From positions 1 through 20,746 of IMG/VR virus record IMGVR_UViG_3300037117_000006: DNA of 20,746 nt; one strand, 5' to 3'. The notes under the pieces are model-generated. The model had not been told where the DNA came from and made no database searches. It saw nothing but the letters and a program-made list of their open reading frames with translations. This document shows positions 5,682 to 18,990 of this stretch, piece after piece; position 1 is the stretch's first letter; the number at the start of each line of letters is the position of its first letter. The stretch is from a virus. A program made the position numbers and the translations under genes.

Positions 5682-6296
5682 ATGACCGATCCTAATAGAC
5701 TGCTCACTGCTTCTAAGATGATGAACGATGTTCAGCAGCGGCTATTTACGCTCTATGTTGGTATTGGGTCAAGTCGTACCATTTCAAAGCTTCACGAGCT
5801 TTGCCATGTTCGAGGATTTAACGTTACAAAACGCATGCTGGATCGTTGGAGTGCGAAGTGGCATTGGTCCGAGCTTGCAAAACTGACACAACAAGAAATC
5901 GCAAATAACGTTGCAAGAGAAGTACAGCCTCAGCTTCGGGAACTCATTGACCTTGATCTAAAAGCGTGTATAAAAATGAAGGAGCGATTTCATAAGCGGC
6001 TTGAGATTGATCCGTTCTCCGAGGACTTCGATGCGCTGCCGGAGGCGAAGAAAGAGCTTGCGATCATACCTGATCTTGCCGACTACGAGCGCGTTGTTCG
6101 ACTTGAGAAGCTGTTGCTCGGCGATCCTGAAGAACTAGAGCGCAAGGGCGAAGTCTCGCGGCTCGGTAAAGTGCTGGGTGACAACGACGGGAATGTCATT
6201 GCGACATTGCGTGAGCGGACGATTCAGGTTTACGGGCTGCCCGATAAAGACGTTATCAAAAAGGTGCATGAGCAGCTCGAAGGTGGTAAGGAGTGA
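5682..6296 (+). CDS. Putative terminase small subunit (TerS)
   Basis: A 204-residue protein directly upstream of the large terminase, whose GTG start overlaps its stop (GTGA). Residues about 30-62 form an HTH-like segment (SSRTISKLHELC, then VTKRMLDRWSAKWHWSE). The RW-x-x-KW-x-W pattern is common in phage small terminase and DUF1804-like proteins, which bind the packaging site on the genome and recruit the large subunit. The rest is helical and charged, fitting an oligomerisation region. No strong ribosome binding site lies just before ATG 5682 (only a weak GGGTTGAAG). A strong one sits about 50 bases upstream in a hairpin. The call rests on position and the HTH, not on a diagnostic motif. 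Confidence 0.7.
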   Translation: MTDPNRLLTASKMMNDVQQRLFTLYVGIGSSRTISKLHELCHVRGFNVTKRMLDRWSAKWHWSELAKLTQQEIANNVAREVQPQLRELIDLDLKACIKMKERFHKRLEIDPFSEDFDALPEAKKELAIIPDLADYERVVRLEKLLLGDPEELERKGEVSRLGKVLGDNDGNVIATLRERTIQVYGLPDKDVIKKVHEQLEGGKE

Positions 6297-8974
6297 CTGC
6301 CTTCTTACAAGCTGTTGCGGACAACACGACCTTTGGCTATGCCACGGAGTACATGATAGTCGATGGCCGTCCGTTTTCATTCGATGGGCACAGCTATCTC
6401 ATCGACTTGTATCAAGACAACCACCCCTACCAAGTCATCGAAAAGGCGGCCCAGATGGGTGCCTCGGTACTTGGTATGGCAAAGGCGTTCTTCGTCTGCG
6501 ACAAGCTCGGAAAGAACGTCATTTACTTCTTCCCGACTGATGAAGACGTGCGCGAGTTCTCCAAAGGCCGTGTTGCGCCGATCATTCGCGATTCGCCGCA
6601 CCTCGAAGCTGTTGTTGGTGACGCCGATGCGGTTGGACTGAGAAACGTTGGCCGAGGCTTCCTGTACTTCCGAGGCATGCGCTCGAACATTCGTATGAAA
6701 TGTTTTTGCGAAGATACGGAAGTGCTTACTCGCTCCGGCTGGAAGCATTTTGATTCAGTAACGAGAGAGGACTACATTGCTACGCGCTCACCGAGCGGCA
6801 TATTTATGTGGCAGCGCCCTACCGACGTTTGGCAGTACGACTACAACGGCGAAATGTTGCATTTCAAAGCTGCCGGAACTGATGTGCTTGTTACACCGAA
6901 TCATCGCATGCTGTTTCAATCTTGCCCAGGGAAGCAGGAATGGTTCGAGACAGCAGAGCAGCGCAGGAACGCGAAGGCTAGTCAAACGCACCAGCAGTTT
7001 GTCCGTAGTGATGTTACTTGGCGCGGCGAGGTTCCAAAGTTTCTTGTCAAGGACGGTCGGGATGCACATGGCGATAAGTGGTTCATAACGATTCCAGGTA
7101 ACAAGCGCAACAATGCGTGGGAATCGGCGGGAAGATTGCCTTCAAGGCGTATAAATCTTGCCGATTGGGTTGCCTTTCTAGGGCTGTACTTAGCAGAAGG
7201 TTCGACTCAAGGAGTCATGGGCGGCAAGCGTGGCGGTCGAGTTAGCATTTCTCAAGTTGAGAAATCTAAGCATTTCCAGCGGATACAAAAGCTGCTGCCA
7301 AAGATTGCCGCCACATGGAGCTACGATAACGGGAGCACATTTCGCATTGGTGATATGGAACTTGCGAAGGTGTTGTTTCCATTAGGCAACAAGTACAACA
7401 AGTTCGTGCCAGAGTGGGTGAAGAATCTGCCGCCCAGGTATTTGAAGATTTTGTGGGAGTGGGCTGTGGTCGGCGACGGCTCTGTTCAGCGTAGTCAAGT
7501 GCGGTACGGGACCATGAGCAAGAAGTTGGCCGACGATATGCAGGAAGTGTTAATGAAGCTCGGTGTTCTTGCGTATGTGAAACCGCAGAAGCAAAGTACA
7601 GTCCCGACGATTCGCGGGCGTCAAGTGAAGAGTACGGTGCCCTGCTACGTTGTTCTTGCACGAACTACCGGCAAAACAACCGTTGCACCAAGGCCGCAGG
7701 CTGTAAAGTATCGCGGCACAGTTGGATGCGTGTCAGTACCGAACGGCGTTATTTTGACGCGGCGTAACGGGCTTACTATGTGGAGCGGCAACTCGATTGC
7801 GGCTGACCTCCTCATCTTTGACGAGCTTGATGAAGTAACGAACAATCAGTTGGAGCTTGCAGATCAGCGCCTCAACCACTCATCGTTGAAGTGGCGTTAC
7901 CTCCTTTCGACGCCGACGTTCGACAACTACGGCATCGACCGCGAGTTTCGCAAGAGCGACCAACGGTATTGGAACCTCATCTGCAAGAACTGCCTGACGC
8001 CGAACATTACTGAGAAGCTGTTTCCTGATTGCGTAAAACGCATTAGCGAAGTGAAGTGCATTCTTGTTTGCCGCAAGTGCGACGCGGAGCTGGACGCACA
8101 GTACGGTCTTTGGATAGCAGAAAAACAGACTGAGCGCATTCGTGGGTATCATCTCTGCTCGCTCTACGGCATCTATACCGACCTTTCGGAGTTGATGTAT
8201 AAGTTCGAGGAAGGCCGGCACCGTGAAGAGTTCATGCGCTCGAAGTTGGGCATGCCGTGGGTCTCGACAGATCAGCGGTTGACGCCGGAGCTAGTGGAGC
8301 GGTGTTGCGAGCGGTACGAGTGTGGACCGATGGGCATGACGCACACCTACATGGGCGTTGACCAACGCGGGCGCGAGCTGCATGTCGTCATTCGCGGCAA
8401 TGATGATCGTACACGCCGTCCGAAAGACGTGCTTATCAAGCGTGTTCGCAAGTTCGAGGACCTCGACGTGCTTATGTCCGAGTTCGATGTAGACTTGGCG
8501 GTCGTTGACGGTACGCCGAATCAGCATTCAGCGCGGGACTTCTGCATGCGCTTTCCAGGCCGTGCCTACATGGCCTACTATAACGAGAATCAGCGTGGAT
8601 CGTACAAGTGGCAAGAGTCCAAGACTGATGACGAGGACTATCAGGTTACGGTCAACCGCACCGAATCGCTCGACGCCATGTATGAGGAAGTGCAGCGCCG
8701 CGAGATTATGCTCCCTAACCCCGACAACGCGGAGATTCACTCGTTTGTCGAACAGGTATGCAATCTTGCGCGCATCAACGAAGTCGATGACGACGGCGGC
8801 GTGAAGCATGCCGTTTACAAACGACTTGGCGAGGACCACTACGCGCACGCTTCAAACTACGCACTGATCGCACACTCGCGATTCGGTGGGCCGGTTCAAA
8901 GCATCATGGTACAATCGCCGATCATCTCAACAAATGTCGTAAGCCGCCGCTTCGAGGAAGGGTCTCGATACTAA
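6293..8974 (+). CDS. terL: Terminase large subunit (TerL), interrupted by an intein
   Basis: An 893-residue precursor with a GTG start. Removing the intein (residues 137-500) leaves 529 residues, a normal TerL length. The ATPase part has EKAAQMGASVL (about 50-60), which aligns with the deviant Walker A of lambda gpA (Lys at the front of the motif, no GK[ST]). Walker B LLIFDELDE (D510, E511) follows the intein, then the coupling motif LLSTPTFD. A zinc-ribbon-like set of four cysteines (C564, C567, C593, C596) separates the ATPase and nuclease parts, as in GpA-type terminases. The RNase H-like nuclease has GVDQ (D690), VVDGTP (D739) and GEDHYAHASNYAL (D848). The enzyme pumps phage DNA into the prohead through the portal and cuts it at start and end. 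The portal gene follows one base later. The call is secure. Confidence 0.95.
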   Translation: MTAFLQAVADNTTFGYATEYMIVDGRPFSFDGHSYLIDLYQDNHPYQVIEKAAQMGASVLGMAKAFFVCDKLGKNVIYFFPTDEDVREFSKGRVAPIIRDSPHLEAVVGDADAVGLRNVGRGFLYFRGMRSNIRMKCFCEDTEVLTRSGWKHFDSVTREDYIATRSPSGIFMWQRPTDVWQYDYNGEMLHFKAAGTDVLVTPNHRMLFQSCPGKQEWFETAEQRRNAKASQTHQQFVRSDVTWRGEVPKFLVKDGRDAHGDKWFITIPGNKRNNAWESAGRLPSRRINLADWVAFLGLYLAEGSTQGVMGGKRGGRVSISQVEKSKHFQRIQKLLPKIAATWSYDNGSTFRIGDMELAKVLFPLGNKYNKFVPEWVKNLPPRYLKILWEWAVVGDGSVQRSQVRYGTMSKKLADDMQEVLMKLGVLAYVKPQKQSTVPTIRGRQVKSTVPCYVVLARTTGKTTVAPRPQAVKYRGTVGCVSVPNGVILTRRNGLTMWSGNSIAADLLIFDELDEVTNNQLELADQRLNHSSLKWRYLLSTPTFDNYGIDREFRKSDQRYWNLICKNCLTPNITEKLFPDCVKRISEVKCILVCRKCDAELDAQYGLWIAEKQTERIRGYHLCSLYGIYTDLSELMYKFEEGRHREEFMRSKLGMPWVSTDQRLTPELVERCCERYECGPMGMTHTYMGVDQRGRELHVVIRGNDDRTRRPKDVLIKRVRKFEDLDVLMSEFDVDLAVVDGTPNQHSARDFCMRFPGRAYMAYYNENQRGSYKWQESKTDDEDYQVTVNRTESLDAMYEEVQRREIMLPNPDNAEIHSFVEQVCNLARINEVDDDGGVKHAVYKRLGEDHYAHASNYALIAHSRFGGPVQSIMVQSPIISTNVVSRRFEEGSRY
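6701..7792 (+). mobile_element. Intein with LAGLIDADG homing endonuclease, in terL
   Basis: A 364-residue in-frame insertion. It begins with Cys1 in CFCEDTEVLTRSGWK, the classic intein block A. Block B is VLVTPNHRM. The two endonuclease motifs are FLGLYLAEGS (about residues 294-303 of the precursor) and WAVVGDGS (about 390-397). It ends with VPNGVILTRRNGLTMWSGN and then Ser as extein +1. The penultimate residue is Gly where His is usual; some known inteins tolerate this. Joining the flanks gives MRSNIRMK-SIAADLLIFDELDE, a continuous approach to Walker B, which supports the borders. The endonuclease would cut intein-free terL alleles, allowing the element to spread between phages. Confidence 0.93.
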
Positions 8975-8975
8975 A

Positions 8976-11900
8976 ATGATATTCTCATCGGATGGCAAGA
9001 GTGCGCTGAAGTCGGTTGACGGTGAAGAGCGCGTTCAAGTCATCAGTCCCCAAGAAGCACAGCGGATTGATTGGGCAAAAACTACGCAAGTCATCGACGG
9101 CGCAAGCTATGAGCCGGACAAAGAGTTCGAGGACGCCGCAGTAGCTCGACCAATGAATCCAATGGACTTCACAGCAGAGACTTTTAACGGTAAGCCGTTC
9201 GAGGTCGAGGCTGAACTGTTCGAGGTTTCGCGCGACGGTACGGAGTATCGGTTGCAGCGTTACCCGAATAAGGCTGCGCTTGCTTCGCGCCTCAAGGAAG
9301 CCGAAACGCAGTGGCACACTTGGACACCTCCTGAGCGTCATTTACGGGAAGCCGTGCGGCCCAGAGAGCGTGCGATTGATACCGCAGTTGATGAGGCGGC
9401 ACGAGAGCAGTTACGAGAAGCGTTTGATGGTGGTGGGGGCTATCCTCCGGCCAATGACAGTCAAGCCTGGGCATCGAGTCGCTATGGTGATGGCTTCGAC
9501 GCACAAGCGGAGTACGTTCCGCTCATGGCGGGGCCGTGGTCGAAGCAGCTTTATCAGCGGCAGTTTTTGGAGATGCACTGCCTGACCGGCGATACGAAGA
9601 TTTTGATGCTTGACGGCACCTCAGTTCGTATTGATGACCTTGCAAAACGTGGTGGTGAGTTCTGGGTGTATTCATGCGATGGCACGCAGGTTGTGCCTGG
9701 ACGTGGCTATGACGCGCGCAAAACGGGTGATCTTCCGGTCTACGCCATTGCTTTGGATAATGGTGAAGTTGTCAAGGCAACGGGGAATCACGGTTTCATG
9801 TTACGCGATGGTTCATATAGACGAGTAGATGAGCTGAAACCGGGGGATAGATTGATGCCCCTGTACCGAAAATATAAGGGGCGTCGAACTAACCCTAAAA
9901 CGAAGCAGACTTACGAAAGTGTTTATCATCCTGGCATGGATTTGTGGGAGTTTACGCATCATCTTGTGGCTCGTAGGCATGTTGAAAACTTTTTTGAGTA
10001 TCGCGACGGCTACCACATTGACCATATCAATCAAGATGCTCACGATAACCGACCTGAAAATCTGCAACTGCTGACTTCTGGCGATCACATGCGGAAGACT
10101 GTTGCATGGAATCTTCAGCATTCGCCTGAATCGTTTACGGGAGCAAAAGGCAAGCCTGTCTCTGAAGCGCGCCGTAGAAAGATTAGCGAATCTAACCGTA
10201 GACGGCATGCAGCGTACACAGAAGAAGAGCGTACCTCCCTAAGTCAGAAACATTCCGAAGCTCAAAGACGCCGTTATGACAATGGCTATGCCATGTCAAA
10301 AGAGCATGTTGAATCTATTAGGCAGGCGAACTTAGGGCGCAAGCGTGACATAGTGAGTCGTACTCTTTCTAGCGAGAACGCTAAGAGTGTTTGGGACAGG
10401 TATACCCCTGAAGAGCGGCAAGCGCGTGTGAATAAAGTGAAAGCCGGTTGGACGCCGGAGAAGCGCGCAGCCCAGGCTATTCTTAATCATCGTGTGGTAT
10501 CGGTAACGAAACTTGGTGTCGAGCCGGTGTACGACATCTCTGTTCACGGATACAGCAACTTTGCTCTTGAAGCCGGAGTGTTCGTTCACAACTCGAAAGC
10601 GTTTGAGGCGTACAACCACAATCCGGTTGCACGTCGAGTCGTCAACATTACGCGCGACTTCATTTTCGGGCATGGGCTCGATCACGTTTCAACCAGCTCT
10701 GATGTTGATGAAGTGTGGACGGAGTTTGTAGAACGCACTGACTTCTACAACCTGCTCGCCGATACCATCTACACTGACCTCTCGTGGGCCGGTGAGATGA
10801 TGTTTGAATGGTATGATAACGATCCATTCAAAGGTGCCACAGATTTCCGAATGATCGACCCGTCAACGGTCTGGGAAATCGTGACGGACCCCGAAGACAT
10901 TTTCAACGTCTACTACTACTATCAGTCATACGAGACTGCCATGCAGCAGTACGTCACAGGCAACATTCCTTCTACGAAGTACATCATCCGGCAAATCCCT
11001 GCGAACCGCGTAACGCATATCAAGATCAACTCGTCCATGTACGAGAAGCGTGGGCGCAGTGATCTGTTCCCGAATCTCGGCTGGGTGAAGCGGTTGAAGG
11101 ATTTGATGAATGCTCGCGTCATCAAGGGCCAGCTCGAAGCGGCGTTCGTTTGGGACGTAGAAGTGCTTTCGGGTGACGCGAACGTTGCGGCGGTTGGGTT
11201 GAAACTGCCTGATCCATACAAGGCTGGCTCGACGTTCGTTCACAACAAGAACATTAAGTTGACGCCGGTATCGTCATCGCTCAAGGGTAACGAGCAAGAG
11301 CCTGATGTCGAGAATCTCATTACACTCATCGCGCTCGGTGGCAACATCCCCAAGGAGTTCTTGGGGCAGACTTCGCGCGGCGGTCGTGGCGGACAGCTCT
11401 TGTCGAGCGAGCCGGGTACAAAGTGGTTCGAGCGCCGTCAAGTGCTCATCGACCGGATCGTTCATACCGTAGCAAACCGCGTGATCGGCAACGCCATTAA
11501 GGCGAATATTCTGTCGCTGGACGACATCTTGAAGGATGCTCGTTCAGTGCGCCGTCTTGCGCCAAGTGCTTCAAACCAACCAAAGCGCGGGGACATTGAG
11601 AACAAGATCGAGGACACGCGCGAGGAGCAGCAAGATCAACGCGACGAAGCGCAGCAGACTCAGGCTGATGCACAACAGCAGAACGCTCAACAACAGCAGG
11701 ACGCCAAAGATCAGGCCGACAAGTCGAAGAACGGCAAGACTGAAGTTCACGTTTCAGTCAACGGAAAGGCTAAGGTGAAGGAAGCGATCCGTGGTGTTGT
11801 ACGCGAGTCTGAGGCCGACGATAGCAACGGCGGCCCGTTGACGAAGCAGCAGAAGGCGCGCATCGAGACCATCAAGAAGACGCAGAACTACTCCAAGGAG

Positions 11901-12578
11901 TTCTTGCAGTTCATGTTACCGGCTATCGCACAAGAGGATCGCTCCTCGAAGCTCAAAGACGTTGCACTTGCCGAGTCGATGGAATGGATTTCAAAGCGAA
12001 CGTCGGCAAACATGGGCGCTCACGAGCTGAACATTACGACCTACGACTTCGATGAAGAGCGCGTGCAGATCAACGCCGAGTCCGACGAAGGCATGTCGAT
12101 TGCCCATGTGTATTCGCAGGACGGTAAAAAAACTCCCGAGACCGTGCTTGCACAGGATGTTCAAGAGCGTGAGCAGGCAGAGCAGCCTCCTGCCGAAAGC
12201 TTTACGAACGTGCCTGTGCCTCCGACTACTGAAGGAATGAAAGTTGTTCCAACACAGGGTCAGAATCCAAGCGACCAACCCAACAGCGGCACGAAGAAGG
12301 TGAACCAGCACGCAGCTCTTGATACCAACGATACGAATCCAACCAGCACGAATAAAATGAGTCCAGAAAATCGAAACCCAATGACGGATAAAGGAAAGGC
12401 CGGAATACTCGCTCACGAACGTAGGACTAAAGCGTCGTTGCGCCGAGCCGTCAAAAGTGAAATCCTTAGAGAAGCCCTCGGGCCTCTTATGAAGGAAGAC
12501 AGTGCTCTTGCGAAGTTGATCTTGGAACGTAAAGCTGATGCTGTCAACTCGGAAGAGCTAGATGAAGCCCTGTCCTAA
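8976..12578 (+). CDS. Phage portal protein, interrupted by an intein, with long C-terminal extension
   Basis: A 1200-residue precursor, 862 residues after removal of the intein (residues 202-539). It starts one base after terL ends; GAGGAAGGG lies about 12 bases upstream. The portal identity rests on position after TerL and on the block after the intein: YNHNPVARRVVNITRDFIFGHG, then DLSWAGEMMFEWY, PSTVWEIVTDPED and NIPKEFLGQTSRGG, the order seen in SPP1-like and related portals. The portal forms the dodecameric DNA channel at one head vertex. After the core comes a coiled, Gln/Asp/Glu-rich stretch (nt 11620-11720) and about 250 further residues with low-complexity linkers (PPAESFTNVPVPPTT), longer than most portals. 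These could be a fused scaffold-like or accessory region. The first 200 residues are also poorly conserved in look. The overall call is strong; the tail function is unknown. Confidence 0.88.
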   Translation: MIFSSDGKSALKSVDGEERVQVISPQEAQRIDWAKTTQVIDGASYEPDKEFEDAAVARPMNPMDFTAETFNGKPFEVEAELFEVSRDGTEYRLQRYPNKAALASRLKEAETQWHTWTPPERHLREAVRPRERAIDTAVDEAAREQLREAFDGGGGYPPANDSQAWASSRYGDGFDAQAEYVPLMAGPWSKQLYQRQFLEMHCLTGDTKILMLDGTSVRIDDLAKRGGEFWVYSCDGTQVVPGRGYDARKTGDLPVYAIALDNGEVVKATGNHGFMLRDGSYRRVDELKPGDRLMPLYRKYKGRRTNPKTKQTYESVYHPGMDLWEFTHHLVARRHVENFFEYRDGYHIDHINQDAHDNRPENLQLLTSGDHMRKTVAWNLQHSPESFTGAKGKPVSEARRRKISESNRRRHAAYTEEERTSLSQKHSEAQRRRYDNGYAMSKEHVESIRQANLGRKRDIVSRTLSSENAKSVWDRYTPEERQARVNKVKAGWTPEKRAAQAILNHRVVSVTKLGVEPVYDISVHGYSNFALEAGVFVHNSKAFEAYNHNPVARRVVNITRDFIFGHGLDHVSTSSDVDEVWTEFVERTDFYNLLADTIYTDLSWAGEMMFEWYDNDPFKGATDFRMIDPSTVWEIVTDPEDIFNVYYYYQSYETAMQQYVTGNIPSTKYIIRQIPANRVTHIKINSSMYEKRGRSDLFPNLGWVKRLKDLMNARVIKGQLEAAFVWDVEVLSGDANVAAVGLKLPDPYKAGSTFVHNKNIKLTPVSSSLKGNEQEPDVENLITLIALGGNIPKEFLGQTSRGGRGGQLLSSEPGTKWFERRQVLIDRIVHTVANRVIGNAIKANILSLDDILKDARSVRRLAPSASNQPKRGDIENKIEDTREEQQDQRDEAQQTQADAQQQNAQQQQDAKDQADKSKNGKTEVHVSVNGKAKVKEAIRGVVRESEADDSNGGPLTKQQKARIETIKKTQNYSKEFLQFMLPAIAQEDRSSKLKDVALAESMEWISKRTSANMGAHELNITTYDFDEERVQINAESDEGMSIAHVYSQDGKKTPETVLAQDVQEREQAEQPPAESFTNVPVPPTTEGMKVVPTQGQNPSDQPNSGTKKVNQHAALDTNDTNPTSTNKMSPENRNPMTDKGKAGILAHERRTKASLRRAVKSEILREALGPLMKEDSALAKLILERKADAVNSEELDEALS
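9579..10592 (+). mobile_element. Intein with HNH homing endonuclease and NUMOD-like repeats, in the portal gene
   Basis: A 338-residue in-frame insertion starting at Cys (CLTGDTKILMLDG, block A), with block B VVKATGNHGFM, and ending in YDISVHGYSNFALEAGVFVHN followed by Ser at extein +1. All splicing residues look intact. In place of LAGLIDADG motifs the middle holds an HNH motif (YHIDHINQ, then DNRPENLQLL and a GDH; precursor residues 346-371). Several short basic repeats follow (SEARRRKISESNRRR, SKEHVESIRQANLGRKR), which resemble NUMOD3 DNA-binding modules of intron endonucleases. The joined exteins read LYQRQFLEMH-SKAFEAYNHN. This makes a different endonuclease lineage from the other two inteins in the window. 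Confidence 0.93.
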
Positions 12579-12633
12579 GTGTGGGCAACAGGACGCTGAT
12601 GACGAACTAGCTCGTCAGCGCATTGCTTGTTGA
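12562..12633 (+). CDS. 23-residue peptide with CPxCG motif
   Basis: A very short frame between the portal and MuF genes. ATG 12562 lies in the portal end (17-base overlap), with GGAAGAG six bases upstream, and the stop at 12631-12633 overlaps the TTG start of the next gene. The peptide begins MKPCPKCGQQ and ends in IAC, so it has half a zinc ribbon (C-P-x-C-G) plus a third Cys. It also neatly fills what would otherwise be a 50-base gap in a genome with almost none. It may be a real microprotein, or mainly a device that carries ribosomes from the portal gene to the non-ATG start of the next gene. Evidence is spacing, ribosome binding site and the Cys motif only. Confidence 0.5.
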   Translation: MKPCPKCGQQDADDELARQRIAC

Positions 12634-14102
12634 TTAAAGTTGTTGACCGCCAACTCTTTGAAGCCAAAGCCAAGCGCCGAAAGGTGCGGGCTGCGATAGG
12701 CTCAATCCTTCGTAATGCTCGCAAGCCGCTGTTCAACCGAGTCGAGATTGAGATTCAGCGATATCAAGCAGCACTCGTCAACCTCCTGAATCAATCACAG
12801 CGCGATCTTGAACAATCGGTAGGGGCGTCAGGACATCTTGCGATTACACTTAACGATCTCGTTGAAGAGTTCCAGAAACTCGGAATGGTGTATCTGCAAA
12901 ACGGTGCGGACATCGGGTACGAGCGCGCTCTCACAGACTTGAAGGATCGCGGCTGGATTGCAAGTTATCAGGAGCCGGTCCACGCGCCGAAGGAAGCCGT
13001 CGAGGCTGTCTTGACTGCGAACTACAAGTACCTGCGTTTGAGCTTGCTACCTGACTTACAGAAGAAACTGCAATGGGCGACGCCAAGCAACGTCGGCCCA
13101 GCGATTGCAGCAATGCGTGCTCGCGTGCAGATGTACGGTCACTATGTCTGGGTCGCGAGTCAGGAAAGTTATCGCGCATGCATCAAGGACTTTTTCACGC
13201 ACACGACGCTGCATGAGAGTGCTGTACCACGCAAGATCAAGATTCGCGAAGGTGGGCCCGGCTCCGGGTTTCACGGGCATGCCGGTCGTCCTGGTATTCG
13301 CGGCGGATCGGCAGCGGGAGGCGGTAAGGCGCAAGCGATTTTCTTAATGGGTGGCAGTGCAAGTGGGAAAGGACGCCTTGCCCAACGGTACGCGAAAGAA
13401 TACGGCATTAAGAATGTCATCAACTGCGACCATATCAAGGAAGCCTTCCCACTCTTCACCGGCAAGCCGATCAACGGTAAGTACGGAACGTCGGGTCCAA
13501 AGACGTATCAGGAGCTGATTGAGAACTACACTCCTGAAGAAGTTGCAAACGTCAACGAATACATCCGCGATCATACCCCCTTCTCCGACGTGCATGAGTT
13601 TGCACAGCGGCAGTTCGGCGATCCCGACAAGTTCTATGAAGACAACAATCCGGCAAGTGGTGGGCTGACGCATGAAGTATCGTCGTACATCGCAAAGCAA
13701 CAGCTTGCGGGCGCACTTGATTCGGGCAAGTCATTCGTTTATGATTCGACCGGCAACGGTTCGTACTATCCGATATGGGCAGGCAAAGCTGCCGACGCCG
13801 GGATGGCTGTCACTATCGCTCAGGCATACGTTCCTCGCGAAGTTGCACACATGAACGACGATGCTCGTGGAGCGAATGCTGATCCGGGCGATCTGACGGG
13901 TCGGACGGTGGGCTCGGCGGTCCTAATGAGCACCCATGATAAGGTAGACGCGATGGCTCCGGTTATGGCTGCCTGGGCTACAGGGGCGCGTGCAGCGGGC
14001 CAGGACGTGACCTTCACGCGCGATGATACCTACACCCCGGAGATGCTCGCCAGAGCCCGAGAACTTGGCTATACCTACTCTTCGCGACCTACCGGAAACT
14101 AA
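12630..14102 (+). CDS. MuF-like head protein fused to a zeta-toxin-like kinase domain
   Basis: A 490-residue protein from TTG 12630, overlapping the preceding stop (TTGA); TTG 12627 is an alternative. Residues 1-200 are helical and charged and lie directly after the portal, the usual place of the MuF/SPP1 gp7 minor head protein. Residues 208-227 form a Gly-rich linker (GPGSG...GRPG...GGS). From 235 on there is a P-loop kinase: IFLMGGSASGKGRLA (Walker A 241-248), NCDHIKEAFP (Asp as in zeta toxin), a THEVSS helix start, DSGKSFVYDSTGN, and a late GRTVGS. Zeta toxins phosphorylate UDP-N-acetylglucosamine and block wall synthesis; relatives phosphorylate other substrates. No epsilon-type antitoxin is visible. 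MuF proteins enter the capsid, so the kinase could be packaged and delivered with the DNA. The kinase family is clear; the MuF part rests more on position, and toxicity is unproven. Confidence 0.78.
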   Translation: MIKVVDRQLFEAKAKRRKVRAAIGSILRNARKPLFNRVEIEIQRYQAALVNLLNQSQRDLEQSVGASGHLAITLNDLVEEFQKLGMVYLQNGADIGYERALTDLKDRGWIASYQEPVHAPKEAVEAVLTANYKYLRLSLLPDLQKKLQWATPSNVGPAIAAMRARVQMYGHYVWVASQESYRACIKDFFTHTTLHESAVPRKIKIREGGPGSGFHGHAGRPGIRGGSAAGGGKAQAIFLMGGSASGKGRLAQRYAKEYGIKNVINCDHIKEAFPLFTGKPINGKYGTSGPKTYQELIENYTPEEVANVNEYIRDHTPFSDVHEFAQRQFGDPDKFYEDNNPASGGLTHEVSSYIAKQQLAGALDSGKSFVYDSTGNGSYYPIWAGKAADAGMAVTIAQAYVPREVAHMNDDARGANADPGDLTGRTVGSAVLMSTHDKVDAMAPVMAAWATGARAAGQDVTFTRDDTYTPEMLARARELGYTYSSRPTGN

Positions 14103-14115
14103 CACCCTACCACTT

Positions 14116-14158
14116 TTGTAGCATACCCCCTTGCGGCGACGGAACGCCTATGCTACAA
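14116..14158 (+). repeat. Perfect 10-bp inverted repeat overlapping a promoter
   Basis: TTGTAGCATA (14116-14125) and TATGCTACAA (14149-14158) are exact reverse complements separated by 23 bases. A further GGCG...CGCC pair (14135-14138, 14145-14148) lies inside. The right arm covers the -10 region of the promoter entry, so it could be an operator bound by a dimeric repressor. No T-run follows, so it does not look like a plus-strand terminator. It lies in one of the few non-coding gaps of the window (14103-14177). Confidence 0.65.
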
Positions 14159-14159
14159 T
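14131..14159 (+). promoter_or_regulatory. Sigma70-like promoter for the accessory gene block
   Basis: TTGCGG (14131-14136) and TACAAT (14154-14159) are separated by 17 bases, and TGC directly before the -10 gives an extended -10 (TGnTACAAT). Transcription would start near 14166, leaving a leader of only about 12 bases made up of the strong ribosome binding site GGTGGAGGTGA before ATG 14178. Such a short leader is unusual and is a reason for caution. The overlap with the inverted repeat suggests control by a repressor. Confidence 0.55.
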
Positions 14160-14177
14160 AACGGTGGAGGTGACAGA

Positions 14178-14792
14178 ATGGTCTCGACAATGACTGACAT
14201 GGAAAAGCCCAACGCATTCACTGATTCGTTCGATTCCTTCGTATGCGACGAAGATACAATCAAAACTGAGCCTGATACGAACGGAGTCTACTACGTCGCA
14301 ACTGTCAAGTATGATGGCTGCGGCGAAGCGCCGTGGGAAGAGAATGACGGGCACGGGCCGGTCTCCGATTGGCGACGACTCGACAGTAAGCGGCCCGGCG
14401 AGCGCGTCTTGTGCACCGATAGAAGCAGTGCTCGCTTCTACGACTTCGAGGAAGCCGTGAAGATCGCACGCGCAGACGGCTGGGACGCCGAACCATACAA
14501 AACGGGAACGCCAGGTGAACGGGCAGTACGCGCAGTCGAGGACGACTTCAAGGTCCTCAAAGCGTGGTGTAATGACGAGTGGAGTTACTGCGGCGTCGTG
14601 CTCTCGCAACGGCAGATCGTTGACGAAGATGACGTTGAACTCGACAAGCATGTCGAGAGTCTGCGGGGCATCGAAGCCAACTATCCCGGCACCAAAAACG
14701 AGCACCTTACTCAGGTCGCGAATGACTTGCTCGAAGAAGCGAAGAGCCGGACGCATTCGCGCCGCATGATCGTGGAAGTGGTGGCGACATGA
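14178..14792 (+). CDS. Conserved-type phage protein, function unknown
   Basis: A 204-residue protein. ATG 14178 has an excellent ribosome binding site (GGAGG, 7 bases before). It is acidic and soluble with no signal peptide or membrane segment. Notable segments are GVYYVATVKYDGCGEAPWEE, GHGPVSDWR, KRPGERVL and RFYDFEEAVKIARADGWD (about residues 36-115), a pattern I associate with small phage and plasmid hypotheticals of unknown role. The C-terminal 70 residues are helical and end in RRMIVEVVAT. It is the first gene after the 14131 promoter and overlaps the next gene (ATGA), so it leads the accessory operon. No enzymatic motif was found. Confidence 0.8.
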   Translation: MVSTMTDMEKPNAFTDSFDSFVCDEDTIKTEPDTNGVYYVATVKYDGCGEAPWEENDGHGPVSDWRRLDSKRPGERVLCTDRSSARFYDFEEAVKIARADGWDAEPYKTGTPGERAVRAVEDDFKVLKAWCNDEWSYCGVVLSQRQIVDEDDVELDKHVESLRGIEANYPGTKNEHLTQVANDLLEEAKSRTHSRRMIVEVVAT

Positions 14793-14998
14793 CAACCACA
14801 GTCGATGTCCTGGTGAGCAATCAAGGCACCATCTTCACGTTCACGCCGCTCACATCGGCAGCACGTGAATGGATCGAAGAGAACGTCGCAAGCGAAGGCT
14901 GGCAGTGGCTGGGCGGATCGCTCTGCGTCGAACATCGTTACGCGAGCGACCTTGGTCGAGGCATGCGTGAAGCAAACCTAGAGCTAAAGGAGGGCTGA
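14789..14998 (+). CDS. Small conserved-type phage protein, function unknown
   Basis: A 69-residue protein with an ATGA overlap to the gene before it. The sequence IFTFTPLTSAAREWIEENV, then GWQWLGGSLCVEHRYASDL, then GMREANL resembles a small protein common in phages and mobile elements: a strand, a helix, then a hydrophobic VEHRYA strand and a closing helix. No catalytic motif or export signal is present. It ends two bases before the next start, and its last codons supply the ribosome binding site AAAGGAGGG of that gene. The function is not known to me. Confidence 0.78.
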   Translation: MTTTVDVLVSNQGTIFTFTPLTSAAREWIEENVASEGWQWLGGSLCVEHRYASDLGRGMREANLELKEG

Positions 14999-15000
14999 AC

Positions 15001-15711
15001 ATGAGGCGCAGTCAGAGCTACGGCAAGATCGCTTACAATAATGCGGGGCGCAAAGAGAACCTCGTTGAGATCGAATGGGAGCTGACCGAAGAGAGCCGAT
15101 TTTCAATGAGTGGCTCGATCTGGAACCGCAACCACAGCGACATTATTGCAGGCGGGCAGTGTCTCGAAGAGATCGCGAAGCTGCTGCCGCACAACAAAGA
15201 CGTGCAGCGCAAAGTCGAAATCTGGCGCACTTGGCATCTCAACGACATGAAGGCTGACTGCGTACATCAACGGCAGCAAGGCTGGCCGCTTGAGAAGTCG
15301 ATCAATCTGTTCAGGTTCCAGCTCGACAGCGGGGTAAGCGGTCTCCGCAGTAAAATCGAAAATAACGCAATACATGGACTCAAATACGGGCAGATTGTAT
15401 CAAGCGGATGGTTGATTCCATTAAACGAGGAGGAAAAGCGGCTGCTCAATCTCCCGTTCTTCCTCGAAGTCTACAGCTACGACACGGCGATACCAACGCC
15501 CGAAGACTACGAGCCGGACCGTTTCCGCTCGTCACCTGAACGCAAGATGCTTGGCTGGGTACGAGCTGAAGATCACCCAGACGGACTGCTTGGCAAGCCG
15601 TGCAGCGTGTGCGGTTACAAGTACGGAACCGCGTGGCTGAAAGAAGAGTTGCCGCCCGAGATTGTGGCGGAAATCAAATCGTGGGGCTTAAAGAAGGAGG
15701 TGGCAGTGTGA
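15001..15711 (+). CDS. Phage/plasmid-type hypothetical with C-terminal CxxC
   Basis: A 236-residue protein with a textbook ribosome binding site (AAAGGAGGG, 6 bases before ATG). The first third is beta-rich (LVEIEWELTEESRFSMSGSIW). A central helical part has WRTWHLNDMKADCVHQ (about 76-91), and the C-terminus has KPCSVCGYKYGTAWLKEELPPEIV. The CxxCGYKYGTAWL segment looks like half a zinc ribbon and, together with the WHLNDM motif, marks a family I have seen only as hypothetical in mobile DNA. Other Cys and His residues (C60, C87, H88) could complete a metal site. The stop overlaps the next GTG start. No function can be assigned. Confidence 0.8.
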   Translation: MRRSQSYGKIAYNNAGRKENLVEIEWELTEESRFSMSGSIWNRNHSDIIAGGQCLEEIAKLLPHNKDVQRKVEIWRTWHLNDMKADCVHQRQQGWPLEKSINLFRFQLDSGVSGLRSKIENNAIHGLKYGQIVSSGWLIPLNEEEKRLLNLPFFLEVYSYDTAIPTPEDYEPDRFRSSPERKMLGWVRAEDHPDGLLGKPCSVCGYKYGTAWLKEELPPEIVAEIKSWGLKKEVAV

Positions 15712-15989
15712 ACGACAAGATCGCAGCAACGGTGCTGCTCAGTGACCCGTGTTTAGTAATCCTCGTCAAAGAAGGTGAGCACGGCTATTGGGAGCACGAA
15801 CGATGCCCAACCCCGCAAGACGCCTACGCTCGGGCTGACACGCTCAACGATGCGCTGAGAATCAGTCCAGCAGAACGCGAGGCGCTCTATTGCAGGTCAA
15901 TATTCCCACACAGCACCGCAACGGCGCAAACCTTCGCAGACACAGCGAAGCCGCTTGCGGAGAAGTACAGTGGGGTGGCAGTGTGAACG
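15699..15989 (+). repeat. Direct repeat of 16 bases at two consecutive gene junctions
   Basis: GGTGGCAGTGTGAACG occurs at 15699-15714 and again at 15974-15989. Each copy spans the end of one gene (reading VAV-stop) and the GTG start of the next (reading Met-Asn). The copies are 275 bases apart and bracket the 92-residue gene between them. This could be the trace of a junction duplicated when that small gene was inserted, or a shared translational coupling signal. Confidence 0.7.
15708..15986 (+). CDS. Small hypothetical protein bracketed by a 16-base repeat
   Basis: A 92-residue protein. The GTG at 15708 overlaps the previous stop (GTGTGA) and has AAGGAGG 7-8 bases upstream, so longer versions beginning inside the previous gene are not needed. 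The N-terminal half (AATVLLSDPCLVILVKEGEHGYWEHER) looks like two beta strands; the rest is helical (PQDAYARADTLNDALRISPAEREAL). No Cys cluster, signal peptide or enzyme motif is visible. I do not recognise the family. The start and stop lie in the two copies of the GGTGGCAGTGTGAACG repeat, which hints at insertion as a cassette. Confidence 0.7.
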   Translation: MNDKIAATVLLSDPCLVILVKEGEHGYWEHERCPTPQDAYARADTLNDALRISPAEREALYCRSIFPHSTATAQTFADTAKPLAEKYSGVAV

Positions 15990-16333
15990 CGCTCGACTAC
16001 ATCAAGGAGGTGACGAAGGAAACGTCACCCCTCGCTGGCCCAGGTGGAAGTCCGCTGTGGGGTCAGCACCACGAGCACGCGATGGAGATGCCAGCACCCG
16101 GCTTCGAGCGCGCTCTCGTGAGACTGCTCTTGGGCTTTGCGGAGTACGCGGACGTTTATAAGGAGCGGTACGAAAGCCCCGTTGGCGAGGACGGGTATCT
16201 CGGCGACAAGTGGGAAGACATCGCAAGCGGAATCCTCGGACTGCTCAACGGCGAGCACGGAAGACTCGACGCCTGTACGTTTGACAAGATGATCCGGCAA
16301 ATCGCAACTGACAACGGAGGCAACATCGAATGA
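15983..16333 (+). CDS. Hypothetical protein, 116 residues
   Basis: GTG 15983 overlaps the previous stop in the same GTGTGA arrangement as its neighbour. Only a weak GTGGGGTGG lies upstream, so translation is probably coupled. The protein starts MNALDYIKEVTKETSP and has GFERALVRLLLGFAEYADVYKERYESP (about 39-65), a long amphipathic helix. It then has GDKWEDIASGILGLLNGEHGRLDACTFDKMIRQIA, also helical. It is likely a small all-helical cytoplasmic protein. No motif points to a function. The stop overlaps the start of the secreted protein gene (ATGA), keeping the operon unbroken. Confidence 0.7.
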   Translation: MNALDYIKEVTKETSPLAGPGGSPLWGQHHEHAMEMPAPGFERALVRLLLGFAEYADVYKERYESPVGEDGYLGDKWEDIASGILGLLNGEHGRLDACTFDKMIRQIATDNGGNIE

Positions 16334-16770
16334 AAACACTCTACATCAGCCTGGGCGCGCTGCTCCTTGCGTTTGGCGTTCCTAGTATCGCTCACGCGCA
16401 GTACGTCAACGCTGGCTGCGGTCAACTGATCCGTTCGCGCATCCAGCTTGAAGACCAAGCCCAGGCTGCGAACGGTGCCGCCGATTACGGAACGGCATAC
16501 GAGCAGTACCAACAGGCCGTCGAATACCGAGCGAACTGTGCTGGCGAGACAACCGGCGCAGCGAAGCAGTGGAACCTCTACTTCGAGGCATCGGATTACT
16601 TCGGACTCGAAGCTGCAACGACGAGCGATGATTCGCCGTGGCACGATCAGGCAAGCGGCTTTCGTTCCGAAGCTCATGAGATCACGAACAACCTCCTCAA
16701 CGAGAATCTCGAAAGTGGTTTACGGCAGCTCGTGCAACAGCTCTGGAACTATACGCAAGGCGACGGGTAA
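16330..16770 (+). CDS. Secreted or periplasmic protein with Sec signal peptide, function unknown
   Basis: A 146-residue protein with ATGA overlap to the gene before. The N-terminus is a clear Sec signal peptide: MKTLY, then a hydrophobic core SLGALLLAFGVPSIA, then AHA-Q, with signal peptidase I cleavage expected after residue 23. The mature part is helical, with two Cys (GCGQL and RANCAGE) that could form a disulfide, and repeated QYQQAVEY/YEQ-like helices resembling a TPR-type or coiled-coil fold. Export of a phage-encoded protein in the middle of an accessory block is typical of lysogenic-conversion or superinfection-exclusion genes, but that is inference. A lysis-related role is less likely, since no lytic motif is seen. 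Confidence 0.78.
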   Translation: MKTLYISLGALLLAFGVPSIAHAQYVNAGCGQLIRSRIQLEDQAQAANGAADYGTAYEQYQQAVEYRANCAGETTGAAKQWNLYFEASDYFGLEAATTSDDSPWHDQASGFRSEAHEITNNLLNENLESGLRQLVQQLWNYTQGDG

Positions 16771-16775
16771 AGGGC

Positions 16776-16895
16776 ATGATCGGTGAGGACGAAGAAGAAG
16801 AACGCGCAGGCGTAGCACAGGCGCAGGGCGGCAGCAAGAGCCGGTCGAATCGCTGGGATCATGATCTATCAGGACCCTACGACATGGCCTCGTGA
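16776..16895 (+). CDS. Possible 39-residue acidic/Arg-rich small protein
   Basis: ATG 16776 lies 5 bases after the previous stop, with GGGTAAAGGG upstream as a fair ribosome binding site. The product begins MIGEDEEEERAG and ends NRWDHDLSGPYDMAS, overlapping the start of the next gene by 35 bases in another frame. The stretch would otherwise be a 90-base non-coding gap. Support is limited to the start signal and spacing; the family is unknown. It may serve mainly to bring ribosomes to the next start, which has no good site of its own. Confidence 0.4.
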   Translation: MIGEDEEEERAGVAQAQGGSKSRSNRWDHDLSGPYDMAS

Positions 16896-17655
16896 CGAGA
16901 AGGCCCTAGCAGAAGGCAACCGCGCGATGGAGGCCGCAGCACCGGCTTACCAAAGAGGCGACGATGACGAACCCGACTATCTGTTCTCGGAGCTGGTAAA
17001 CGGCAAGTGGCAGCCCTGCAATCGCGACGAGCACGGCATGCCAATCACAACCCCGGCGAGCGAACACGCACGGGTACAAGAGGGCGGCGCAGGATCGGGA
17101 TACCACGGACACCCAGGTCGTCCTGGGCAGCGTGGAGGATCGGGAGCAAGCGACGAGATTTCAAAGGCAATCAGTGGCATTCGCAAACATGGTGGCGTTA
17201 CCATCGACATCCATGGAAACATGCCGCAACACGGCTTTACCGTAGGTGGGCTGGGCGAAGAGAAGATCGTGGATAGGCTGACTCGTGAAAACGTGCAAGA
17301 ATATCACGTCAATAACGCGACGGCACTCGCGCAACCGAATCGGTACTTCGGAGGTTGGATTGAAAAGGGTCAGTTCTACATGGACGTTTCCGAAGTGCTT
17401 GGATCGCGAGTCGATGCATTAGCAGCGTGTCACGAGCGATTACAGATTGCAGCGTTCAACCTAGACTCAGGGGAATCGGTGTATGCAATGAGTGACGAAA
17501 GCAGACCGGGTAAGGATAACCCGGCAACCGAGATTCGCGAATCGGAAGGCAAGAAGCCTGAGTTTCCGAAGCTGTTGCTATTCGGCAAAGACGTGAACTT
17601 CGATGACATCGTGAATAAGGTCAACGCTGAAATCGAGAAGTCGAAAGCGTCGTGA
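16861..17655 (+). CDS. Second protein with the GRPG linker, fused to an unknown C-terminal domain
   Basis: A 264-residue protein; ATG 16861 is the only start left, because an in-frame stop lies shortly upstream. The N-terminal 70 residues are polar and Pro/Asp/Glu-rich, with YLFSELVNGKWQPCN. Residues 75-94 repeat the linker of the MuF/kinase protein (EGGAGSG, HPGRPGQRGGSG). The following domain (about 110-215) contains IDIHGNMPQHGFTVGG, LAQPNRYFGGWIEKGQFYMDVSEVL and AACHERLQIAAFNLDSGE. This resembles a compact alpha/beta domain that I have seen as a C-terminal module in phage head and polyvalent proteins, but it has no function I can name. It is not like the zeta kinase. The shared linker suggests both are packaged or processed alike. 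It ends with a GTGA overlap to a micro-ORF. Confidence 0.75.
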   Translation: MIYQDPTTWPRDEKALAEGNRAMEAAAPAYQRGDDDEPDYLFSELVNGKWQPCNRDEHGMPITTPASEHARVQEGGAGSGYHGHPGRPGQRGGSGASDEISKAISGIRKHGGVTIDIHGNMPQHGFTVGGLGEEKIVDRLTRENVQEYHVNNATALAQPNRYFGGWIEKGQFYMDVSEVLGSRVDALAACHERLQIAAFNLDSGESVYAMSDESRPGKDNPATEIRESEGKKPEFPKLLLFGKDVNFDDIVNKVNAEIEKSKAS

Positions 17656-17699: not shown

Positions 17700-17752
17700 T
17701 GAGCGACATAGAGCGTGCGATTACAAGTGCTGAGAAGAATGAGCACTTGTAA
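17699..17752 (+). CDS. 17-residue micro-ORF running through a hairpin (possible leader peptide)
   Basis: The ATG overlaps the stop before it (TGATG), and the TAA overlaps the next ATG (TAATG). The peptide is MSDIERAITSAEKNEHL. Its last 11 codons lie in a 12-bp perfect inverted repeat, so a translating ribosome would open the hairpin just before the start of the 17752 gene. A control role by translational coupling is more likely than a stable product. Confidence 0.45.
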   Translation: MSDIERAITSAEKNEHL

Positions 17753-17753
17753 T
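17720..17753 (+). repeat. Perfect 12-bp inverted repeat (strong hairpin) over a start codon
   Basis: ATTACAAGTGCT (17720-17731) pairs exactly with AGCACTTGTAAT (17742-17753) around a 10-base loop, GAGAAGAATG. The right arm runs into the ATG of the downstream gene (17752-17754). An overlapping alternative fold (GAGC 17741-17744 with GCTC 17764-17767, GTAA 17749-17752 with TTAC 17759-17762) is followed directly by TTTTTATT and would exclude the first hairpin. Translational or transcriptional control is inferred. Confidence 0.75.
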
Positions 17754-18267
17754 GAGTGTTACAGCTCTTTTTATTGGCCCCGATGACAACGAAACGTGCA
17801 ATGGTTGTGAAGATGCGGTCGAAGGCAACCCGTACACGATAGAAACATGTCCGCAACCGGGCGATCAGGAGTGCATGTCGCGCTGTCGGCACGCGATTCA
17901 GATCGACGGCAACGCCCCATCGGACATGCCGACGATGACTTGGCGAGGATCGCTTGGGTTTCAGCCCGAGCTAGAGCCCGCTGAACCTGCGTTAGTCGAT
18001 ACCATTACCCCAGATGAAGGGATGCAGTCACCTGTAGACTTGGTGAACGCCTGGGCGAAGCACGACTCCGATATACTTTCAGGGATTCTTACCGACGATC
18101 CCAAGGCGCTCGAATACGCGAAACAGCTCGCAGTTCAGGGCTTTGATGATGTCGATGCAGTATCTGCGTACAATCTCGCTGATGCACTGAACGATGTAAC
18201 GAACCATGAAACGTGGCACGTCATCCTCCATGCAGGTCGCTGGTATGTTCAAGCTCAATCGTCGTAG
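17752..18267 (+). CDS. Protein with N-terminal Cys/His cluster, possible detached minor-head-protein segment
   Basis: A 171-residue protein; ATG 17752 overlaps the micro-ORF stop (TAATG). The first 50 residues hold CNGC (16-19), GNPYT, PQPGDQEC and SRCRH (C41, C45, H47), a probable metal-binding cluster. A similar Cys/His arrangement with GNPY and PQPG is, as far as I recall, found near the end of MuF-type minor head proteins. Here it is detached, 3.6 kb downstream of the MuF gene. Then comes an acidic Pro-rich linker (about 70-92) and a C-terminal alpha/beta part (SPVDLVNAWAKHD ... NHETWHVILHAGRWYVQA). No export signal is visible. The leader suggests controlled translation. The head-related reading is a hypothesis. 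Confidence 0.68.
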   Translation: MSVTALFIGPDDNETCNGCEDAVEGNPYTIETCPQPGDQECMSRCRHAIQIDGNAPSDMPTMTWRGSLGFQPELEPAEPALVDTITPDEGMQSPVDLVNAWAKHDSDILSGILTDDPKALEYAKQLAVQGFDDVDAVSAYNLADALNDVTNHETWHVILHAGRWYVQAQSS

Positions 18268-18490
18268 CGCACTTGCGCTCATCGGCGGCATACTCATGCT
18301 GCCTGCGTTGCCGAAGCCTAAAGCTCCTGATGAACCGGACATCGTTTGTGGTGGTCCGTGGGGTCAAGAAACTGCGGACTTGTGGACGTGTGGTATGTAT
18401 AAGAGCGGGCCATTAACGATTGCGCTTTTAGAGAAAACATGGCTTGACGAGCATCGTCGCATAATGGACTACTACCGGGGTGCAGTATGA
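18245..18490 (+). CDS. Small membrane-anchored or exported protein with Tat-like N-terminus
   Basis: An 81-residue protein. ATG 18245 lies 23 bases before the previous stop; an upstream ATG at 18206 would add a polar N-terminus that spoils the signal. The N-terminus MFKLNRRSALALIGGILMLPALPKP has a twin Arg before a hydrophobic run, like a Tat signal or a membrane anchor. It lacks the full SRRxFLK consensus and a clear AxA cleavage site. The mature part has two Cys (VCGGPWGQ, WTCGMYKSG) that might form a disulfide outside the cytoplasm. It is followed at once (ATGA) by the HExxH protein, so the two may act together. The family is unknown to me. Confidence 0.65.
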   Translation: MFKLNRRSALALIGGILMLPALPKPKAPDEPDIVCGGPWGQETADLWTCGMYKSGPLTIALLEKTWLDEHRRIMDYYRGAV

Positions 18491-18990
18491 ATGCGATTCA
18501 GCTCGTCGTATTTGACAAGCCGGTTAGCTTTTGGTGCGATGACTACACGACGCCTGAAGAACAAGCAACGGCTACTGCTGCCTTCATAGCCGCCGTCGCG
18601 CTACTCAACAGCCGCCGAGCATACTTTGATGATGCCCTCGTTGCGGCTATCAAAGAGATCAACGCCATCGTTATCACAGGTTCGGACAAAACGAACCTTG
18701 GTGCAACAGGAAAGTACAGTATGCTGCTATCGTCGGCATACATTGCACTGTGTTCAATCGCGTGGATTGCATCGCTGTTTATACACGAAGGGCAGCATCA
18801 TCTCAACGCTGGGAAGTATCCAGCGCCGAATGAATGGTGCAACGAGCAGTCGGCAGCACGGATGCAACTTACGGCTGGCGTGCTTATGGGATTCACGCCA
18901 TCCGAGGGCGCTGACCTCATAGCATATTCTGCGGACAGCAATGCCTCGGCAATGGAAGTTCATATGCGCGGATACAAAGGTCCACAGTGA
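18487..18990 (+). CDS. HExxH metalloprotease-like protein
   Basis: A 167-residue protein, ATG 18487 overlapping the previous stop, with GGGGTG upstream. Residues 92-104 read AWIASLFIHEGQH, a hydrophobic helix ending in HEGQH, which fits the zinc-binding HExxH (H100, E101, H104). A downstream Glu in CNEQSAARMQ (E120) sits 16 residues after H104 and could be the third zinc ligand, as in gluzincin-type folds. The following helix (RMQLTAGVLMGF) fits the same pattern. There is no signal peptide, so it may act in the cytoplasm or with the exported neighbour. Substrate and role (processing of a phage protein, host attack or wall-related) are unknown. The stop overlaps the next GTG. Confidence 0.68.
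   Translation: MNAIQLVVFDKPVSFWCDDYTTPEEQATATAAFIAAVALLNSRRAYFDDALVAAIKEINAIVITGSDKTNLGATGKYSMLLSSAYIALCSIAWIASLFIHEGQHHLNAGKYPAPNEWCNEQSAARMQLTAGVLMGFTPSEGADLIAYSADSNASAMEVHMRGYKGPQ

Follow-up and report, generated by a model that had tools for sequence, protein, structure and literature searches.

The question raised by the window, the whole 20,746-base IMG/VR contig IMGVR_UViG_3300037117_000006, is why two otherwise unrelated proteins of one phage should carry closely similar glycine-rich peptides. The peptide, here called the linker, has just two copies in the record, lying exactly at 13251-13310 and 17083-17142, where the original prediction had put them, in proteins encoded by open reading frames (ORFs) A and B. 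We consider it probable that the linker marks a cleavage-and-release junction of capsid-delivered effectors, cut by the phage's own head-maturation protease. The residue before the GG that opens the linker is called P1, and the one two residues further upstream P3. The features concerned are the following.

12627-14102, + strand: ORF A, 491 amino acids (aa); N-terminal domain, site I-R-E, linker, zeta-toxin-like P-loop kinase
13242-13250, + strand: predicted P3-x-P1 cleavage site Ile-Arg-Glu of ORF A, with the putative cut after 13250
13251-13310, + strand: linker GGPGSGFHGHAGRPGIRGGS within ORF A, directly following IRE
13350-13373, + strand: P-loop GGSASGKG of the ORF A kinase domain, read from the sequence
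16861-17655, + strand: ORF B, 264 aa; 70-aa leader region, site V-Q-E, linker, uncharacterised phage domain (phrog_3170/17808)
17074-17082, + strand: predicted P3-x-P1 cleavage site Val-Gln-Glu of ORF B, with the putative cut after 17082
17083-17142, + strand: linker GGAGSGYHGHPGRPGQRGGS within ORF B, directly following VQE

Two linkers in one phage

The two linkers share 16 of 20 residues but only 41 of 60 bases and 6 of 20 codons, and their third codon positions are equal at 6 of the 16 residues common to both, so that the residues are indeed kept while the DNA differs. Chance similarity is ruled out by a shuffling control, in which the best 20-mer match was at most 10 of 20 (one protein shuffled, 300 trials). 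The flanking domains are unrelated, as had been predicted: the C-terminus of ORF A matches Zeta_toxin PF06414 (35.5 bits against a gathering cut-off of 22.3, E 9e-9, with the P-loop), whereas ORF B continues into the phrog_3170/17808 domain. ORF A had been described as a MuF/kinase protein; the kinase half of this description stands, while the MuF domain (PF04233/PF06152) gave no Pfam match at E 0.1, though the N-terminal domain, which is seen in related phages only, has a MuF-like position directly downstream of the portal.

Among all linkers of one phage, codon identity is 0.40, where codon usage would predict 0.34. Gene conversion between linkers is ruled out by this comparison, recent copying does not explain the within-phage constancy described below, and the earlier suggestion that the peptide itself is under selection is borne out.

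The site before the linker

The linker has the consensus GG[PA]GSGxxGHxGRPGxxGGS, with the invariant positions GG.GSG..GH.GRPG..GG. The residues in front of it behave differently: P1 and P3 are nearly constant inside one phage and differ among phages, while P2 is nearly free. For 111 within-phage pairs with unrelated flanks, identity at P1 is 0.82 within a phage versus 0.16 between phages, at P3 0.41 versus 0.11 and at P2 0.16 versus 0.08, with P4-P6 near background; the P1 class is the same in 69 of 70 interdomain pairs. The sites fall into the classes [LIV]xE, [RK]x[LA], [VTI]xR, xxK and xxD. The original prediction had offered packaging, protease cleavage or threading as the linker's role; these sequence patterns favour cleavage, with the refinement that specificity would reside in the residue triplet preceding the linker; these residues track the phage's own head-maturation protease. 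An AT-hook reading of GRPG was rejected because the flanks are often acidic.

Correspondence with the head-maturation protease

As judged from sequence, P1 and P3 follow the family of the phage's own head-maturation protease. In a set of 50 records, the 13 that match DUF2213 strongly all belong to the D class, 5 of the 6 with a weak match (a divergent DUF2213 branch, [RK]x[LA]) have L or A at P1, and all 5 with Peptidase_S78 or S78_2 (HK97-type) are of the K class; a permutation test of protease family against P1 gave 0/100000. The DUF2213 proteins match PHROG head-maturation-protease families. Peptidase_S78 itself is present in only 3 of the 50 records, so one protease family cannot account for all. 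Residue 103 of HK97 gp5 is a lysine, and we take this to be the known P1 of the S78 protease. The phrog_595 "head maturation protease" was left unused as evidence because its matches are split over two separate regions.

For the E class, Peptidase_S77, the family of T4 gp21, was found in 3 of 100 records, all three of the E class and one of them held out; the S77 protein of one of these (G044) matches the sequence of the gp21 crystal structure 5jbl at 2e-5. A second gp21-like family, recognised by profile, is present in 7 of 7 E records (five of them seeds, two held out) and 0 of 35 non-E records; in G021 its gene precedes that of the capsid, and it is in most other sizeable E-class records. 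Its representative is the following.

L212:1126-2706: E-class protease of relatives; assemblin-type fold, with His and Ser motifs YADHP and G[IV]SINA conserved

The structural model of this protease (pLDDT 67, the other four models being at about 40) has T4 gp21 (5jbl) as its top PDB match (Z 8.3, VIA re-alignment), followed by herpesvirus (human cytomegalovirus, HCMV) proteases at Z of about 4.5, and matches capsid maturation proteases in BFVD at E 6e-11; a Foldseek search of it against PDB gave no significant match. On the model, then, the E-class protease is predicted to have the assemblin-type fold common to T4 gp21 and herpes assemblin. T4 gp21 cuts after L/I-x-E (PMC9026906), so the biochemistry agrees with [LIV]xE in gp21-type phages.

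For the R class the candidate is a 658-aa protein (L140:5922-7895), encoded upstream of the capsid gene, restricted to R-class records and without a PHROG match, which is probably a new protease-scaffold fusion. Its reading as a protease comes from its place before the capsid gene, its restriction to the R class and its motifs; its AlphaFold model reached pLDDT 32, and profile comparisons were uninformative.

The window itself is best placed through two related records, G021 and G058, which are syntenic with it (terminase about 60 and 49%, portal about 48%) and have homologs of the ORF A N-terminal domain. Both carry the gp21-like protease of the second family upstream of the capsid gene, sites reading LVE, MRE, LRE and LFE, and, in the capsid proteins, an invariant L-R-E followed by A at residue 63/61. 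The window sites IRE and VQE fit the same gp21-type [LIV]xE, and the window phage presumably encodes a gp21-like protease as its relatives do.

Distribution and cargo

With a degenerate DNA pattern, a scan of IMG/VR found the linker in at least 119 stretches; bacterial and archaeal genomes, 257 Gb in all, gave 12, Desulfosporosinus and Clostridia records among them, and 11 of these 12 have at least two ORFs in common with viral contigs. The linker is phage-specific; a wide occurrence in non-phage, non-head proteins, which would have counted against a role in head delivery, is not what was found. It is absent from four phage-collection records related through head or cargo genes, and tblastn with the linker by itself, under a low-complexity filter, matched none of the isolated phages. 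Among the matches listed, 241 linkers were counted over the collected loci, the largest numbers being nine in a 12.5-kb contig and five in a protein.

Listing what the linker joins, as the original prediction had proposed, gave many enzyme domains attached to head proteins. In 154 non-redundant linker proteins from these matches, surveyed with Pfam and PHROG, the carriers are portal, Phage_Mu_F or maturation-protease domains, or a short leader alone; PF04233 is present in 9 linker proteins other than ORF A. The domains joined to them include ADP-ribosyltransferases (ADPrib_exo_Tox 17, DRAT 5, ART-PolyVal 3, and Alt-like) as well as zeta toxin, AAA_33, NUDIX, GNAT, topoisomerase IB, 2'-5' RNA ligase, Ntox50 and CdiA_C. 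One protein (L029) runs portal, NUDIX, linker, ADP-ribosyltransferase, and in G032 and G044 the leader IKDISSEVLTxLFE precedes different proteins, including ones with GNAT and PI3/4-kinase-like domains. The position of the linker varies, from N-termini to between domains to near C-termini.

Exchangeable linkers

The site may be kept while the sequence after it changes. The ORF A homolog of G021 has KLVE followed by GGYGSGFWGHPGRPG and the ORF B homolog KLVE followed by GSPDQPRDDHGRWT, with the site kept and the linker different. In G033 the leader RIRxSLxxRRMD stands before either the GPGSG linker or AKGxYxEEPDSWITL, and in L/A-class records R-x-L/A also precedes FDPxQPRDxxG[RQ]WT linkers. Since linkers are exchanged at kept sites, the constant element would be the leader together with the cleavage motif, and the glycine-rich segment, as far as the sequences go, is a frequent yet replaceable neighbour of it.

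The second linker family, FDPxQPRDxxG[RQ]WTxGG, is widespread in viral contigs (e.g. L005, L189, L210:8555-9175); in a scan of the FDPxQPRDxxGRWT family, P1 was clear in L/A- and E-class cases only. The third sequence, AKGxYxEEPDSWITLKSNGEHVPLN, follows the leader RIRxSLxxRRMD in L181:13649-14458 and L053:8803-10476.

Proposed mechanism and alternatives

In the mechanism that we propose, a head component or a short targeting leader would take the effector into the procapsid; an assemblin-type maturation protease would cut after the phage-specific P3-x-P1, directly before GG[PA]GSGxxGHxGRPGxxGGS; and the effector, freed and now beginning with the glycine-rich segment, would then be ejected with the DNA into the bacterium. 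In the window, cuts after I-R-E (13250) and V-Q-E (17082) would release the zeta-type kinase and a second effector, to which no function is assigned. The cleavage step is supported by the statistics of the sites, while packaging and injection of the cargo are suggested by analogy with T4 Alt.

Several points weigh against this reading, in which cleavage, packaging and injection are all steps that we infer. The near invariance of the 20-mer is unexplained by a pure cleavage role, and the segment may have a second function as a tag or protease docking element. One phage (G019) mixes R and K at P1, and one weak-DUF2213 record has H/N there. The records are interrelated, three R-class records being near copies, so the protease and P1 counts are not independent events. 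No protease gene is recognisable in the 20.7-kb window record, the protease being seen in its relatives. Finally, some linkers lie 20 residues or fewer from the protein C-terminus or directly after the start, where simple release is less sensible.

The linker itself might instead be a packaging or ejection tag for a conserved head or portal element, with P3-x-P1 merely an accessory cut site. Conservation of the 20-mer across all protease classes and hosts would fit such a tag, as would its occurrence at N-termini, between domains and near C-termini, but the linker is exchangeable, its place after an unchanged leader and P3-x-P1 being taken by other sequences in G021, G033 and phages of the L/A class, and no binding partner was identified; we regard this explanation as doubtful. 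We put forward a combined form only tentatively: the 20-mer, common to phages of many hosts and independent of protease specificity, would serve as a general tag for cargo or ejection, recognised by some conserved component of the head or tail, and would make up, with P3-x-P1, a portable two-part delivery signal.

That the linker is a passive, flexible interdomain spacer, spread by recombination among cargo genes and alike within a phage through recent copying, seems very improbable: it is glycine-rich, and some of its variable positions also show greater similarity within a phage, but within-phage codon identity stays near that expected from codon usage, P2 and P4-P6 vary around a constant P1 and P3, and charged residues together with the invariant His, Arg and Pro are atypical of a plain spacer. 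Little probability likewise attaches to autoproteolysis, or to processing by a host protease after injection, in place of the head-maturation protease. Self-processing has been proposed for polyvalent proteins such as P1 DdrB (PMC5512222); here, though, P1 follows the head protease family across unrelated cargo without a common peptidase domain, and a phage-specific P1 would not be expected from host enzymes.

Genomic context of the window

ORF A is encoded within the head module, directly after the portal gene, and this gene order is kept in G021 and G058.

6293-8974, + strand: terminase large subunit gene with intein
8976-12578, + strand: portal gene, containing an intein, directly before ORF A

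Inteins occur in three neighbouring genes of the window, those for a DNA polymerase I fragment (6-1004), the terminase (LAGLIDADG) and the portal (HNH), and the terminase and portal matches in G021 and G058 are interrupted at the window intein positions. Further downstream, 17752-18267 encodes a short separate Cys-rich protein with the module FIGPDDNETCNGCEDAVEGNPY, which forms the N-terminus of large linker-bearing proteins in G021 and G058, and 18487-18990 encodes a small protein near the cargo genes with HEGQHH, a zinc-metallopeptidase-like motif.

Relation to known systems

To our knowledge, T4 cargo has no conserved GG[PA]GSGxxGHxGRPGxxGGS segment; unlike in T4, the linker module is common to many unrelated phages and proteases and is repeated inside polyproteins. 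In other respects T4 is close, with the same protease family (gp21) as in E-class phages. Its internal proteins enter the head by a short N-terminal leader removed at L/I-x-E, and Alt, an ADP-ribosyltransferase cargo, is cut at both its N- and C-terminal ends (PMC9026906). In phiKZ and 201phi2-1, too, many cargo proteins are processed at a short P3-x-E, here by gp175 at S/A-x-E, with no other identifiable cleavage requirement and hence no conserved segment after the cut (PMC9026906).

The MuF polymorphic toxins (Jamet et al. 2017, PMC5576092) are similar in joining a head protein to a C-terminal toxin domain, beside the portal and with proposed head delivery; the passages searched in that paper mention no cleavage motif or conserved linker, and, unlike in these toxins, our linker also occurs on portal, protease and leader-only carriers. 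The phage polyvalent proteins (Iyer et al. 2017, PMC5512222; 2022, PMC9503650) are likewise effectors of several domains, joined to MuF, portal or capsid protease and predicted to be injected; internal peptidases are invoked for them, and the passages searched in these two papers describe no common junction linked to the head-maturation protease. Head-fused effectors and maturation-protease processing are thus already known separately. Neither a shared junction module with P1-to-protease correspondence nor the linker peptide strings were found in the literature searched, which was mostly without subscription journals and without bioRxiv.

With the linker and its site, phage proteins that probably undergo packaging and injection, many of them uncharacterised, can be recognised from sequence, and the cargo sites allow one to predict the specificity with which little-studied head proteases (DUF2213, S78 and the unnamed R-class family) cut. 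If the two-part tag should prove true, injected effectors of undescribed function could be listed from sequence. The delivery of head-fused effectors, in turn, becomes a testable release mechanism.
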